A DNA stretch of 64,000 nt from Actinomycetota bacterium. GTDB taxonomy: Bacteria > Actinomycetota > CADDZG01 > WHSQ01. The stretch spans positions 359,895 to 423,894 of the forward strand of contig JAUJNI010000002.1 of the NCBI GenBank assembly GCA_030446465.1. The letters are read 5' to 3'. Both the position numbers and the translations under genes were made by a program. How positions within the stretch are numbered: position 1 is the stretch's first letter; every line of letters begins with the position of its first letter. This document shows positions 19,595 through 24,888 of the stretch, one piece after another. The notes beneath the pieces were generated by a model. That model was not told the origin of the DNA, did no database searches, and was given only the letters and a program-made list of their open reading frames with translations.

Positions 19595-20353
19595 ATGCAT
19601 GACGACGACGGCTACTTCGACGAGCGGGTCGCCGCTCGCTACGACGAGTCGGAGGCCGAGATGTTCGACCCCGCGGTCCTCGACCCGGTCATCGACCTCC
19701 TCGTCGAGATCACCGGCAGCGGACGCGCGCTCGAGCTCGGGATCGGCACGGGCCGGATCGCGTTACCGCTCGCGCAGCGGGGAGTGCCGGTGCACGGGAT
19801 CGAGTTGTCGAACGCGATGGTCGGGAGGCTGCGCGCGAAGTCAGGCGGCGAAGACATCGGCGTGACGATCGGTGACTTCACGACGACGGCCGTGGACGGG
19901 ACCTTCTCCGTCGTCTACCTGGTCTTCAACACGATCATGAACCTGACGACGCAGGCCGCCCAGGTCGCCTGCTTCCGGAACGCTGCCGCGCATCTCGAGC
20001 CCGGCGGCTGCTTCGTCATCGAGGTGGGCGTCCCCGGGCTCCAACGGCTCCCGCCCGGAGAAACCATTCGTGCCTTCGAGGTGAGCGAGAACAAATGGGG
20101 GTTCGACGAAATCGACGTCGCTACGCAACGCCTCACGTCCCATCACTTCGAGATCGTCGACGGAACGGTCGAGCGCCTCTCGATTCCGTTCCGGTACGCG
20201 TGGCCCTCGGAGCTCGACCTCATGGCACAACTCGCCGGGATGAGGTTGCGGGAGCGCTGGAGCGGGTGGAGGCGGGAGCCGTTCACAGGCGACAGCCGCC
20301 AACACGTCTCAGTCTGGGCCAAGCCGCCTCCAGGTCACGTGGTTGGACAGTAG
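19595..20353 (+). CDS. Class I SAM-dependent methyltransferase
   Basis: A 252-residue Rossmann-fold methyltransferase. Motif I is ALELGIGTGRIALPLAQRG, followed by the ribose-binding acidic residue in VHGIELSNAMV, motif II/post-I TIGDFTTTAVDGTFSVVYLVFNTI and the motif LEPGGCFVIEVG. The N-terminal block DGYFDERVAARYDES is typical of the small-molecule methyltransferases annotated as class I. The methyl acceptor cannot be predicted. The gene stands alone between an attC-like palindrome and the metal-transport cluster and ends with a C-terminal Pro-rich tail. Confidence 0.9.
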   Translation: MHDDDGYFDERVAARYDESEAEMFDPAVLDPVIDLLVEITGSGRALELGIGTGRIALPLAQRGVPVHGIELSNAMVGRLRAKSGGEDIGVTIGDFTTTAVDGTFSVVYLVFNTIMNLTTQAAQVACFRNAAAHLEPGGCFVIEVGVPGLQRLPPGETIRAFEVSENKWGFDEIDVATQRLTSHHFEIVDGTVERLSIPFRYAWPSELDLMAQLAGMRLRERWSGWRREPFTGDSRQHVSVWAKPPPGHVVGQ

Positions 20354-20373
20354 TGTTAACCGTGGCTAAACTT

Positions 20374-20390
20374 TTGATATGTCTAATCAA
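20374..20390. promoter_or_regulatory. Inverted repeat TTGAT-N7-ATCAA in front of the metal cluster (possible operator)
   Basis: The 40 bases before the ATG at 20396 are strikingly AT-rich compared with the flanks and contain TTGAT and ATCAA as a 17-bp dyad ending 5 bases before the start. The position would block transcription or translation of the first gene if bound. The four-cysteine regulator encoded at 23524 is the obvious candidate ligand, but this is inference. Confidence 0.4.
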
Positions 20391-20395
20391 TTAAG

Positions 20396-20941
20396 ATGGA
20401 GTTGGGCGTGAGCGACTTCCAGACAAGAGGACCCGTAATAGCTAGCGCTACCACCGGACGGATTCGGCTGCGCGTGTTGCGAGGCCCCCGTACATCAGCC
20501 GAGTTAGCGGCCTTAGCGCAAACCCTGGAATCCTTCCCCGAGGTTGTGGACGTGAAGCCCAGGCCTCATAGTGCCAGCGTAGTTATCGGGTTTGACTCCC
20601 GGGACACGGCGACCGTCGAGGCGCACCTACATGGTCTGGGGATATCCAACAAACGACAGAGCGCTGCAGAGCCGCCTCCACGAGATCCCGCGGCGACGAT
20701 CCGAGACGCCGCCACCGCGATCGATCGCGCTGTGGGGAACCGGGTGCCTGGAGCGAACCTTCGGCTGCTCGTCCCTCTGACGCTTGGCCTGCTATCGCTT
20801 CGCCAGTTGGTTCGGGGCGACGACCGCTTGAGTGACGCTCCGTGGTATCTCCTGGCGATGTACGCGGCAGATTCCTTCTCTAGGCTCCAGCCCGGACCGT
20901 CGTCGCCCAGGGGCGCTGGGGACGCCGGCGACGACGTATGA
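20396..20941 (+). CDS. HMA-like (HMA_2) domain membrane protein, P-type ATPase partner (FezC-like)
   Basis: A 181-residue protein. Residues about 14-85 follow the heavy-metal-associated ferredoxin-like fold (IASATTGRIRLRVLRG; ESFPEVVDVKPRPHSASVVIGFD), but the metal-binding CxxC is absent, as in the HMA_2 variant. A linker leads to one or two hydrophobic segments at about 123-160. The next gene, a P1B-type ATPase, starts inside its stop codon (ATGA overlap), so the two are coupled and probably work together at the membrane. In ferrosome (fez) loci a small HMA-domain protein accompanies the P1B-6 ATPase; the arrangement here is similar. Substrate unknown. Confidence 0.75.
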   Translation: MELGVSDFQTRGPVIASATTGRIRLRVLRGPRTSAELAALAQTLESFPEVVDVKPRPHSASVVIGFDSRDTATVEAHLHGLGISNKRQSAAEPPPRDPAATIRDAATAIDRAVGNRVPGANLRLLVPLTLGLLSLRQLVRGDDRLSDAPWYLLAMYAADSFSRLQPGPSSPRGAGDAGDDV

Positions 20942-23136
20942 GGGCGGCATCCACGCCCGCCACCACCGAGGTGTACAGCCCCTCGGTCGTTCCCGAACAC
21001 ACCGTTGTCCACGAGCTTCCCGGTCGTCTTCGCTGTCGCACACTCCGGATACGGACTGACGAGGCGTACGCGCGCCGCCTGACCACCCTCGCTGAAACCG
21101 ATGAGGGCGTGACCAAGGCCCGCGTCATCCGATCAGCTGCATCGGTGGTTATCGAATGGGCGCCGTCACTACCGCCCCGGGATGCACGCGCACGGCTGGT
21201 GGAACTTCTGCGGGATGCGGAAATGGCGTCCGATCTTGCGACTAAGCCTGCTCACCCATTACAGGAAGGGCGCCGGCCGAGACTTGTCCTCGTGGGCCTA
21301 GCCGGGGCAGTTGCTCTCGTCGGCCGCTTGTTCGGCTTTGTGATTCCCGCTCCGATCGGGGCACTGGTGATGCTAAGCGCCTCTATCCCCATCGCACGGC
21401 GTGCTTACCGAAGTCTCACCGTGGATCACCGGCTGAACCTCGACGTTCTCGACATCACTGCCATTGCTCTTACGACTATGCGCGGCTCGCTGCTGGCGCC
21501 GGCGTCGATCATCGGACTCGTAGAGGTTGGTGAGGCTATACGGGAGCGAACCGCTCGGGCTTCCCGCCGGGAATTGCTCGATCTCCTTGATTCGATCTCT
21601 GAGACGGCCTGGGTCGTACGCGGCGGTGAGCGTCATCAGGTTCCGATCCACCAAGTCAGACGTGGCGATGTGCTTGTCGTCTATCCGGGTGACCGCATCC
21701 CGGTTGATGGCCGTGTGCTGGAGGGCAGAGCGTTGATCGACGAGCACGAGCTGACGGGCGAGTCGATGCCGGTGCTCCATGAAGAAGGCCAGCTCGTCTA
21801 CGCCTCGACCTTGATGCGTGAAGGTCACCTCCACATCGCGGTGGAGCAGGTCGGCGGCGAAACTCAAGCCGGGCGGATTGTCCAGCTCATGCGTGAGGCG
21901 CCGGTTCACGATACCCGCATCGAAAATCACGCCGGCAAGATCGCCGACCGGATAGTCCTTCCTTCTTTCCTCCTAGCGGGGGTGATACTGGTATTGACCC
22001 GTAATCCGACACGGGCCGCGTCGATCCTTATCGCGGACTTCGCTACGGGCATCCGCGTCTCCGTCCCAACCACCGTGCTCGCCGCGATCACAAGCGCCGC
22101 GCACGCGGGTGTTCTGATCCGCAGCGGGCGCGCCCTAGAGCAATTGGCCGCTGTCGATACGATCGTTTTCGATAAGACCGGCACCGTCACCGAGGGCCGT
22201 CCCGCAATCCTCGACGTCACGGCAGTCACGCCGGAGGTCAGCGTGCGGGAAGTGCTCCAAATCGCTGCCAGTGCCGAGCAGCGGCTCACGCACCCCGTAG
22301 CCGAGGCCATCATGCGTTATGCCGCGGAGCGAGGGATAGCGCCGGGACGCCGCAGTCAGTGGCATTACGACATCGGCCTCGGGGTCCGCGCGCGCATCGG
22401 CGACGCGGACGTGCTAATCGGCAGTGACCGGCTCATGGAAGGAGACGGCGTGGAGGTCTCCAGCATCACGCCGGCAGACGGGGCTCGACGGTCCCAGATC
22501 TACGTCGCCGTAGATGGCCGCCTGCGCGGTGTCATGTCCTACGCCGATCTCGTTCGAACGGAAGCGAAGCAGGTCATAGCCGAGCTGCGTGACCGGCATG
22601 GGATGGACATCCACCTCCTAACCGGCGACAAGTCGGAGACCGCCCGGGCCGTCGGACACCATCTCCGCATCCCTCCGGCGAACGTGCATGGCGAGCTCTT
22701 TCCCGAGGAGAAGGCGGTCGTGGTACAGGAACTCCACCGTCGCGGGCGACGCGTAGCGTTCGTTGGAGATGGGATCAACGACTTGCCGGCTCTGGCCTAT
22801 TCCGACGTCTCGGTCTCGTTCGGTGGTGCGACTGCCGTCGCTCGAGAGACGGCCGACGTTGTCCTGGTCGAGAACAATTTGGCTGCGCTTCCTGCAGCCG
22901 TTTCAGTAGCTCGCGACGCCCTTCGCCTTGTCCGACAGAACATCGGGATCGTGGTCGGCGTCAACCTCCTGACCGGCGCAGCCGCAACCTTTCGAGGCCT
23001 TGGCCCCACCGTGGCGGCGGTCATTCACAACGGGACAACAGTTGTCTCGGCAGTCAATGGTCTGCGACCACTTCTCGGAAACGAGAGCCATAGAAGGAGC
23101 AGGAATCATCGGGCGAAGGAGGCGAACCTTGAGTGA
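20938..23136 (+). CDS. P1B-type (P1B-6-like) heavy-metal-translocating P-type ATPase
   Basis: A 732-residue P-type ATPase. Residues about 20-80 form an HMA_2-like domain without CxxC. The actuator motif LTGES is near 271-275, the phosphorylation site DKTGT begins at Asp412, the P1B hallmark HP dipeptide is in RLTHPVAEAI, and the hinge motif is VGDGINDLP near 610. The transmembrane metal site, CPC in Cu/Zn pumps and S-C-A in P1B-6 enzymes (context D-Y-S-C-A-L-K-L-S-T-P), reads D-F-A-T-G-I-R-V-S-V-P at 367-377. The alignment puts this protein in or next to P1B-6, with the Ser-Cys-Ala replaced by Ala-Thr-Gly. P1B-6 pumps include FezB, needed for iron-filled ferrosomes. The transported ion here is uncertain. 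Confidence 0.9.
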   Translation: MRAASTPATTEVYSPSVVPEHTVVHELPGRLRCRTLRIRTDEAYARRLTTLAETDEGVTKARVIRSAASVVIEWAPSLPPRDARARLVELLRDAEMASDLATKPAHPLQEGRRPRLVLVGLAGAVALVGRLFGFVIPAPIGALVMLSASIPIARRAYRSLTVDHRLNLDVLDITAIALTTMRGSLLAPASIIGLVEVGEAIRERTARASRRELLDLLDSISETAWVVRGGERHQVPIHQVRRGDVLVVYPGDRIPVDGRVLEGRALIDEHELTGESMPVLHEEGQLVYASTLMREGHLHIAVEQVGGETQAGRIVQLMREAPVHDTRIENHAGKIADRIVLPSFLLAGVILVLTRNPTRAASILIADFATGIRVSVPTTVLAAITSAAHAGVLIRSGRALEQLAAVDTIVFDKTGTVTEGRPAILDVTAVTPEVSVREVLQIAASAEQRLTHPVAEAIMRYAAERGIAPGRRSQWHYDIGLGVRARIGDADVLIGSDRLMEGDGVEVSSITPADGARRSQIYVAVDGRLRGVMSYADLVRTEAKQVIAELRDRHGMDIHLLTGDKSETARAVGHHLRIPPANVHGELFPEEKAVVVQELHRRGRRVAFVGDGINDLPALAYSDVSVSFGGATAVARETADVVLVENNLAALPAAVSVARDALRLVRQNIGIVVGVNLLTGAAATFRGLGPTVAAVIHNGTTVVSAVNGLRPLLGNESHRRSRNHRAKEANLE

Positions 23137-23380
23137 GATGAGAGAGAGAAGATCTGAGGTCTGGAAGGGCATCCGAAAAGGGGCGGGGTGGACTATGGGC
23201 GCGGGAATCGTGGTTTCGGCCGCCGCGATTATTCGGGAGGGGCCACGACGAGCTGTCAAGGCGGCGATCAAGGCTGGGCTTCGTGGTGGTGAGGTGGCGG
23301 CGGAACTGACTGAACAGCTTCGTGACGTCTACGCCGAAGCTCAAGTCGAGCGGAGCGGGTCTCCCCACAGCGATCAGTAA
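23129..23380 (+). CDS. Small DUF5132-like protein coupled to the P-type ATPase
   Basis: An 83-residue protein. I start it at the TTG at 23129 because a perfect AAGGAGG lies six bases before it; the ATG at 23138 is the alternative. The frame overlaps the end of the ATPase gene by 8 bases. A basic N-terminus is followed by a Gly/Ala-rich hydrophobic segment (residues about 19-36, with GxG steps) and an amphipathic Lys/Ala and Glu-rich helix (RRAVKAAIKAGLRGGEVAAEL, then EQLRDVYAEAQ). This pattern resembles DUF5132 proteins, which commonly neighbour P1B-type ATPases with HMA_2 partners. It may be a membrane-associated accessory or scaffold; function unknown. Confidence 0.65.
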   Translation: MSEMRERRSEVWKGIRKGAGWTMGAGIVVSAAAIIREGPRRAVKAAIKAGLRGGEVAAELTEQLRDVYAEAQVERSGSPHSDQ

Positions 23381-23497
23381 AGGGACGGTTCCCAAACTCA
23401 GTTGCGCTAGAGGCGCGCGGCACCGCTAGCGGTGGACCCGGAGGCTATGGCCCTTCTCCTGCCTCCAGCGAGGAACGAGGGCCCAATCATTCCACAA

Positions 23498-23509
23498 ACC
23501 ATTATTGGT
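23498..23509. promoter_or_regulatory. Palindrome ACCA-TTAT-TGGT upstream of the four-cysteine regulator
   Basis: A 12-base dyad in an AT-rich island 14 bases before the regulator's ATG at 23524; a wider pair CCAAT/ATTGG surrounds it. The location suits autoregulation. Too short for certainty. Confidence 0.3.
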
Positions 23510-23523
23510 GATATGAATGCGCC

Positions 23524-24234
23524 ATGGAAAAGGTACGACCTGTTGACGTGGCCGCCCTGGCGGCTCTCGACGAGCCGGTACGGTGCCGCCTCTACGAATA
23601 CGTGAGGGATCGAGGCGCACCCGTAACGCGGGAGGCAGCGGCCGCTGCGGCTGGGACCTCGATCAACCTCGCGGCCTTCCACCTGGACAAACTGGTAGCC
23701 CTGGGCCTCCTTGCAGCGCATTACGGACGCCCACCGGACGCGCCCCCGCAGCGGGGAAGGAGCCCGAAGCTCTACCGAGTATCGGATGCCGAGTTCAGCA
23801 TCTCGGTCCCGGCTCGCCGCTACGACCTTTCGGGCGAGATCCTGCTCGACGCACTCGAAACGCGCCAAGCCGGGGAGACGTCGCAGACGGCGGTGCAGCG
23901 AGCCGCCCACAACCGAGGCAAGCAGGTCGGCTACCGGGTCAAGACACAGAAACGCCTGCGTCGCCTACCAAGAGCGCAAATCGTGGATGTGGCACAGCAG
24001 TTGTTAGAGGAACACGGCTATGAGCCGTACGTGGACCAGGATTCCACTCTCCGGCTGCGCAACTGCCCCTTCAACCAGCTCGCACAGCAGTCCCGCGAGC
24101 TTGTCTGTTCGATGAACCGCGCCTTCATCGACGGGCTGCTGCGCGGGCTCGGCGACGACCTCTCCGAAGCTGCTCTCGTCCCTCGGGAGGGCGAGTGCTG
24201 CGTTGCAATTTCAGCAGCAAGGGAGACGGCGTGA
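23524..24234 (+). CDS. SufR-like helix-turn-helix regulator with four C-terminal cysteines
   Basis: A 236-residue regulator. Residues 8-70 form a winged helix (ALAALDEPVRCRLYEYVRD; GTSINLAAFHLDKLVALGLL), with a basic wing RGRSPKLYRV. The C-terminal sensor domain carries Cys181, Cys195, Cys225 and Cys226 in LRNCPFNQLA, ELVCSMNRAF and GECCVAI. Spaced C-terminal cysteines of this kind hold a 2Fe-2S or 4Fe-4S cluster in SufR, the repressor of Fe-S assembly genes, so iron or redox sensing is the likely input. The spacing differs from cyanobacterial SufR (here C-x13-C-x29-CC), so the cofactor is inferred. It lies just downstream of the P1B-6-like cluster and upstream of a DUF2231 gene on the same strand, and probably controls one or both. 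Confidence 0.8.
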   Translation: MEKVRPVDVAALAALDEPVRCRLYEYVRDRGAPVTREAAAAAAGTSINLAAFHLDKLVALGLLAAHYGRPPDAPPQRGRSPKLYRVSDAEFSISVPARRYDLSGEILLDALETRQAGETSQTAVQRAAHNRGKQVGYRVKTQKRLRRLPRAQIVDVAQQLLEEHGYEPYVDQDSTLRLRNCPFNQLAQQSRELVCSMNRAFIDGLLRGLGDDLSEAALVPREGECCVAISAARETA

Positions 24235-24291
24235 CATCGACACAACCTCGATTTACGAACCGGTCACATGGAGTCTCTAAAGGAGGGCATC

Positions 24292-24888
24292 GTGAAGAAG
24301 TTTTCATTTCGGCCGGCGATTGAGCTCAGGGGGCGCAAGTTCAAGGGGGTGCGCGGCTTTGCCGGCAAGCCATTCCACCCCCCGCTGACCGACGTACCCG
24401 TTGGGGCTTACACGATCGGTCCGATCCTGAGCATCGTCGCGTTCCTCTTTCAGGACGCATCTTGGGCGAACGAGGTCTGGAGCGCTGCCGGTTACACCAT
24501 GCTCGTCGGCGCAGTCGTTTCGGTTGCGACGTCGATCACCGGGTTCGCAGACTGGTTGAACACCCAAAAGGGCACGCAGATCCGACGGATGGCCAACGCG
24601 CACATGTGGACCATGCTCACGATGACCCTCATCGTCCTGGTGGCGCTTGCGTTGCGCTTCATCGATGGACGTAACGAGTCGCCGGACACCGTGGTCCTCG
24701 TGCTGGACCTGCTCATCCTCGCGCTCGTGACGGTGGGCGGGACGATCGGCGGATCAATGACCTACGACTTTGGCTTCAACGTCGAAACCGCAGGAGACAA
24801 CCACGTCTACCATGTGAGCGAGCACGACATCGTCCATCCACACGACGAGCCACCCCCAGAGACCAAGCGCGAACTCACGGGGAGCTGA
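24292..24888 (+). CDS. DUF2231-family membrane protein
   Basis: A 198-residue protein with four hydrophobic segments (about 36-52, 64-86, 104-122, 136-158). The DUF2231 signature is present near the start: GFAGKPFHPPLTDVPVGAYT, normally G-H-P-L-H-P-x-L-T-D-I-P-x-G, and the later TGFADW motif follows. The C-terminal tail is His/Glu-rich (HVYHVSEHDIVHPHDEPP) and may bind metal. I take the GTG at 24292 as start because AAAGGAGG sits five bases upstream; the ATG at 24268 has no ribosome site. Members of this family often neighbour regulators and ferredoxin-type genes, but the function is unknown. Confidence 0.85.
   Translation: MKKFSFRPAIELRGRKFKGVRGFAGKPFHPPLTDVPVGAYTIGPILSIVAFLFQDASWANEVWSAAGYTMLVGAVVSVATSITGFADWLNTQKGTQIRRMANAHMWTMLTMTLIVLVALALRFIDGRNESPDTVVLVLDLLILALVTVGGTIGGSMTYDFGFNVETAGDNHVYHVSEHDIVHPHDEPPPETKRELTGS

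Follow-up and report, generated by a model that had tools for sequence, protein, structure and literature searches.

The cysteine chemistry of TM4 is used for assigning substrates to P1B-type ATPases. Among these pumps, the P1B-6 group is listed with Fe(II) as its substrate (PMC7558416), and the article by Boudehen et al. (PMC9374683) describes an HN motif in TM6 as conserved in P1B-6, as well as DUF6110 small proteins that go with these enzymes. The same article presents PacL proteins as scaffolds that stabilise CtpC within membrane platforms in M. tuberculosis, and such platforms were later confirmed (PMC13043812). In ferrosome (fez) systems of the Desulfovibrio type, FezC is a DUF4405-related cytochrome (PMC10979944). 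In C. difficile, where the ferrosome operon is under Fur, FezA and FezB are named as required (PMC12574912), and systems of this type may need no FezC.

The locus described here lies within the window, by which we mean the whole stretch of 64,000 nucleotides that was analysed, on contig C6 of a 2.76 Mb assembly from an uncultured member of the Actinomycetota. The conserved unit of this locus is a three-gene cassette comprising a putative HMA_2-like adaptor, an ATPase sister to P1B-6, and a putative small DUF5132-like scaffold.

Architecture and recurrence of the three-gene operon

The genes for the HMA_2-like protein, the P1B-type ATPase, and an 80-aa membrane protein lie together on the forward strand (20396/20408-23380). 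The first of them (20396..20941) has two start candidates, ATG 20396 and GTG 20408; the latter matches the MSD start of the related locus L051 and is probably the genuine one. Its stop codon shares an ATGA overlap with the ATPase start (20938-20941), pointing to translational coupling, and a 1-nt gap separates the ATPase stop (23136) from the start of the small gene (23138). This arrangement agrees with the sequence-only reading, which had described an HMA_2-type protein, a P-type ATPase, and a small amphipathic protein as coupled in one operon. A sigma-70-like promoter (TGGACA-N17-TAAACT; 20344..20372, forward strand) is predicted just upstream of the cassette from consensus match alone, and its -10 hexamer is alike in the related upstream regions (TAAACT in L051; TACACT in L052 and L037).

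Within Actinomycetota, nine further occurrences of the cassette were found, namely L049 (contig C3 of the same assembly), L050 (G020), L051 (G005), L052 (G380), L117-L120 (G439, G600, G686, and G479), and L037/L121, the Thermoleophilaceae MAG JAUJNT010000001, apparently identical with genome G582. All nine places retain the small gene; the HMA gene is likewise retained except at L120, where no such gene was detected. Members of G380's class (L052, L117-L121) carry an extra small gene between the HMA and ATPase genes. Relative to the L049 copy, the dN/dS values of the three cassette genes (approximately 0.16, 0.23, and 0.20) indicate purifying selection; given this selection and the recurrence at nine other places, the cassette is not a chance arrangement. 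A contig scan with a single protein as query returned L037 as its sole match, and a scan of viral contigs yielded distant ATPases and nothing closer. At L119 (5430-6191), the HMA_2 protein and small protein A are fused in a single frame.

The 9.3-kb contig C3 (G000:C3:1-9300) is 98.3% identical over its full length to G020, which belongs to a different family, and in that genome a marker stretch taken from the window reaches only ~70% identity. IS110-like transposase genes adjoin this copy of the cassette. Because contig C3 may be mis-binned or the product of a very recent transfer, L049 was not counted as independent evidence.

The product of the first gene was recognised by the Pfam HMA_2 model with an E-value of 4.5e-4, under the curated cut-off, which upholds at that level the earlier assignment to the HMA_2 type. 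It carries a GRIR motif but neither CxxC nor any other cysteine. Its structural model (mean pLDDT 62) opens at the N-terminus with a ferredoxin-like domain of beta-alpha-beta-beta-alpha order (pLDDT 75-86) and continues as helices, and the PDB fold matches of this model, among them a metallochaperone and CopA/ATP7B domains, included none that was significant. A profile match (90%) linked the protein to the HMA2 protein of an Azospirillum fez-like operon. The motif R-x8-GR[IVL]R of fez proteins was absent in its exact spacing from both the HMA protein and the ATPase N-terminus in a motif search.

The small membrane protein (23138..23380, forward strand) was analysed through a nine-orthologue alignment, HMM searches, and hydropathy, which revealed a glycine-rich helix followed by an Ala/Glu-rich tail (..AELTEQLRDVYAEAQ..) with no metal-binding tail. 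A Pfam scan gave neither a DUF5132 call nor a DUF1490 match. A profile HMM of all nine small proteins nevertheless detected, 5' of the Gloeothece ATPase at locus L038, a relic that is DUF5132-like (E 2e-5 among 9096 ORFs), which supports the earlier description of this protein as DUF5132-like even though Pfam is silent; against the Pfam-matched DUF5132 protein of L038, the same HMM gave E 0.02. The relic itself (L038:5106-5309, on a plasmid of Gloeothece verrucosa PCC 7822) is an unannotated, apparently frameshifted DUF5132-like gene 5' of a P-type ATPase. In layout the small protein is reminiscent of the PacL and DUF6110 scaffolds. Its similarity to PacL (DUF1490) itself was not significant (HMM E 0.28; hhalign probability 3%), and the C-terminal His/Asp metal-binding motif of PacL was absent from its tail in the nine-orthologue alignment.

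Phylogeny and metal site of the ATPase

The second gene (20938..23136, forward strand) encodes a P1B-type ATPase of 732 aa that matches NCBIfam TIGR01525 above its cut-off (E 1.4e-150) and retains an intact P1B catalytic core (LTGE 272, DKTGT 412, HP 452, GDGIND 610). A tree built from 36 P1B ATPases placed it within a nine-member clade (support 99/98) that also holds proteins of the cyanobacterium Gloeothece, Deinococcus peraridilitoris, and Methylobacterium radiotolerans, the last of these on a long branch whose placement is less sure. All clade members from beyond Actinomycetota are plasmid-borne, other phyla having been sampled through plasmids. The P1B-6 rows, among them pumps associated with DUF6110 and others from multi-gene HMA2/YtxH operons but not FezB itself, were identified from their motif, their DUF6110, HMA2, or YtxH neighbours, and what PMC9374683 says of the group. 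These rows and the window clade were jointly supported at 98/96, the window clade being sister to the D[YI][SA]C rows, and the monophyly of P1B-6 excluding the window clade reached 88/85 only. Masking the TM4 motif left the topology unchanged, with an SH-aLRT of 97 on both branches. By this phylogeny, the ATPase is a sister of P1B-6 and belongs to a separate clade. The sequence-only reading had aligned it with P1B-6 enzymes, which are indeed its nearest relatives, and had named membership of Cu, Zn, or Mn clades as the outcome that would speak against its view; AU tests rejected grouping with Cu (p-AU 3.7e-5), Zn/Co (3.3e-6), and CtpC-like (2.9e-4) enzymes.

An alignment of 30 P1B ATPases revealed that the TM4 motif of the window ATPase reads DFATGIR (aa 367-373; 22036..22056, forward strand) and that the whole window subclade follows the pattern D-[FL]-[AG]-[TS]-G-I-R, with no cysteine, whereas the P1B-6 rows have D-[YI]-[SA]-C, with the cysteine in every sampled one, and CPC, SPC, or CPH occurs in other P1B pumps. 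The cassette is rare, its cysteine-less TM4 pattern occurring in 4/396 sampled genomes of the phylum, 3/24 of the host's class, and 6/399 of G380's class. Since the clade has no TM4 cysteine, no thiol is available to the pump at the canonical TM4 position; the ATPase has one cysteine in all (C33, in the N-terminal domain), and the HMA and small proteins have none. At the canonical site positions, the subclade has Asp, Thr/Ser, Asn, and usually His/Asn, and the conserved Asp367, Thr370, TM5 Asn, and TM6 His/Asn are candidate ligands. The TM6 HN motif (IHNGTT, aa 697-698; 23026..23031, forward strand), located by alignment and motif search, and the TM5 Asn are both typical of P1B-6 and are kept in the Actinomycetota members. 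A plasmid ATPase of Priestia megaterium (L058:2498-4612), adjacent to an HMA_2 gene (E 4.5e-18), carries the TM4 motif DFICGIK; by this motif it looks like an intermediate between P1B-6 and the cysteine-less clade, its position in the tree being weakly supported.

Neighbouring genes and genomic iron context

Two further genes follow the operon on the forward strand. The first (23524..24234) encodes a regulator with a Pfam HTH_20 match (E 2e-7) and four conserved C-terminal cysteines (C181-x13-C195-x29-C225C226) in addition to C21. It had been described as a four-cysteine SufR-like regulator; the cysteines are there, but the NCBIfam scan of this protein returned no SufR model at E<0.1. The membrane protein noted after it (24268..24888) belongs to the DUF2231 family (Pfam E 2.7e-18) and has a four-helix model. 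Neither gene lies beside the cassette at any of the nine other places (0/9), their homologues elsewhere have unrelated neighbours without the cassette, and G005 holds a DUF2231 copy, 83% identical, on a contig other than the one with its cassette. Given the 0/9 co-occurrence and the unlinked G005 copy, the idea that the regulator and the DUF2231 protein are parts of the system was rejected. The proposed iron link through an iron-responsive regulator next door fails because the pair adjoins the cassette only here, and the regulator is of the HTH_20 type, not Fur/DtxR.

The DUF2231 protein was also considered as a FezC-like cytochrome, an idea that gained no support, since its best PDB matches include cytochrome b561 but with E 0.6 and a TM-score of ~0.4. 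His37 and His112 are conserved, the homologues have invariant histidines in HPPLTD and NxHMxxML, located at or near different helices of the model, and the protein might be an uncharacterised b-type cytochrome.

Across the loci examined, no conserved Fur-/DtxR-type regulator and no iron-uptake genes were found beside the cassette. The sole other locus with metal genes was L119 (DtxR-family repressor, NicO, and a weak ZIP match), the neighbourhood of which also contains a BFD-type oxidoreductase. Pfam gave no DUF4405/FezC match among the five window genes; the host genome has one DUF4405 gene, on contig C1 and unlinked to the cassette, and one ferritin-family gene.

Several other loci were observed in the course of this comparison. 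At L012 (G048, Actinomycetota), a DtxR-like regulator, recognised by eye, lies close to a DUF6110-like small protein and a DYSCAIK P1B-6 ATPase, so that, as an actinobacterial candidate for a ferrosome cluster of the C. difficile kind, this locus is better than the window's own cassette. On plasmid pORIO2 of Cereibacter azotoformans (L053:4182-8650), small proteins, a P1B-6 ATPase, and HMA2 form a fez-like operon flanked by genes for FeoA, a TonB-dependent receptor, and FecR, and this plasmid-borne operon is a candidate mobile ferrosome cluster with strong iron context. A likely fez-type cluster is the unannotated operon L041:4283-8046 of Vibrio sp. THAF190c, in which an HMA_2 gene and a DYSCALK P1B-6 ATPase accompany three genes for small Gly/Ala-rich membrane proteins. 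We take L041 and L053-L055 to be fez-type from their layout, in view of the six-gene organisation of fez operons.

Function and comparison with known systems

We see an even chance that the cassette encodes a pump platform in the membrane whose cargo is a hard divalent cation, with Fe(II) favoured by kinship alone. The pump would export such a cation from the cytoplasm, Fe(II) being the most likely by kinship and Mn(II) or Mg(II) the alternatives. The HMA_2 protein would be an adaptor or regulator of non-thiol type that docks to the pump; the small protein would cluster or stabilise it in the membrane, by analogy with the action of PacL1 on CtpC. Because the loss of the cysteine may mean a changed substrate, relatedness to Fe(II) pumps argues only weakly for iron. 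Efflux across the plasma membrane appears somewhat more likely than the filling of an internal vesicle.

The alternative that survives best is nonetheless unlikely in our judgement: a ferrosome-like system in which the pump would fill lipid-bounded vesicles with Fe(II), while the HMA_2 and small proteins would shape or target the vesicle in the manner of FezA/FezB. The sister relationship of the ATPase to P1B-6 is consistent with it, as is the layout suggested by the sequence-only reading, in that the combination of HMA_2, P1B-6-like, and small proteins does resemble the presumed fez-type operons L041, L053 (with its FeoA and TonB neighbours), L054, and L055. A small cassette could also suffice, since FezA and FezB are the components named as required in C. 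difficile (PMC12574912). Against this likeness stand the absent TM4 cysteine, a cassette with no FezC/DUF4405, the lack of a conserved Fur/DtxR-type regulator or iron-uptake genes beside it, and the presence of a ferritin-family gene in the host. A storage organelle is thus a possible hypothesis drawn from kinship only.

We regard it as distinctly unlikely that the pump has abandoned transition metals and moves a hard ion such as Mg(II) or a monovalent cation, with the HMA_2 and small proteins as retained assembly factors. A clade with no TM4 cysteine and a single cysteine (C33) across the three window proteins would suit such a change, and the Thr/Ser substitution would leave an all-oxygen/nitrogen site; however, the P1B-6-typical TM6 HN and TM5 Asn are kept in the Actinomycetota members, and no neighbour genes point to Mg or K transport. 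Similarly improbable, in our estimate, is a second, non-thiol ferrosome branch, in which this TM4-cysteine-less sister clade of FezB would deposit Fe or some other hard cation in membrane-bounded stores; its carriers would be the cassette in some Actinomycetota and related clusters in a cyanobacterium and a Deinococcus. The least probable alternative is a PacL/CtpC-type Zn(II) or Mn(II) efflux platform with the small protein as a PacL homologue and the pump as a CtpC-like exporter, for although the genes are similarly ordered, the small protein has a similar build (glycine-rich helix, Ala/Glu tail), and CtpC-like pumps share the HN motif and the GRxR N-terminal domain (our alignment; PMC9374683), a joint clade with CtpC-like enzymes was rejected (p-AU 2.9e-4), TM4 has no CPC, and the small protein has neither the His/Asp tail nor a Pfam DUF1490 match.

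The retention of the P1B-6 scaffold, the TM6 motif, and the partner genes alongside the change of cysteine to Thr/Ser in several phyla provides a natural experiment on iron-pump selectivity. The clade also gives further systems in which to look for ferrosome-like storage or for pump platforms of the PacL kind.

Set beside described systems, the cassette resembles P1B-6 (FezB-type) pumps in the TM6 HN, the Asp before the TM4 site, the TM5 Asn, the N-terminal GRxR HMA_2-like region, and the presence of HMA_2 and small membrane proteins as gene neighbours; it departs from them in having DF[AG][TS]GIR in place of D[YI][SA]C, with Thr/Ser instead of the TM4 cysteine. With the mycobacterial PacL1-CtpC effluxosome it shares a P1B-6-like ATPase whose N-terminus carries GRxR and, in an adjacent gene, a small Gly-motif membrane protein with an Ala/Glu tail, but it has no CPC and no PacL metal-binding tail, contains an extra HMA_2 gene, and does not form a joint clade with that system. 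Like the fez operons, the cassette combines HMA_2, a P1B-6-related ATPase, and a small membrane protein, and it differs from them in the missing FezC/DUF4405, the missing conserved iron regulator, and a pump that lacks the TM4 cysteine. The plasmid cluster of Gloeothece PCC 7822 (L038) is ordered as DUF5132 relic, ATPase, DUF1345, DUF5132, and HMA2; unlike the window cassette, it has NN instead of HN in TM6, an additional DUF1345 gene, and another gene order, and it shares with the cassette the same ATPase clade (41.7% identity), DUF5132-like small proteins, and an HMA2 protein.
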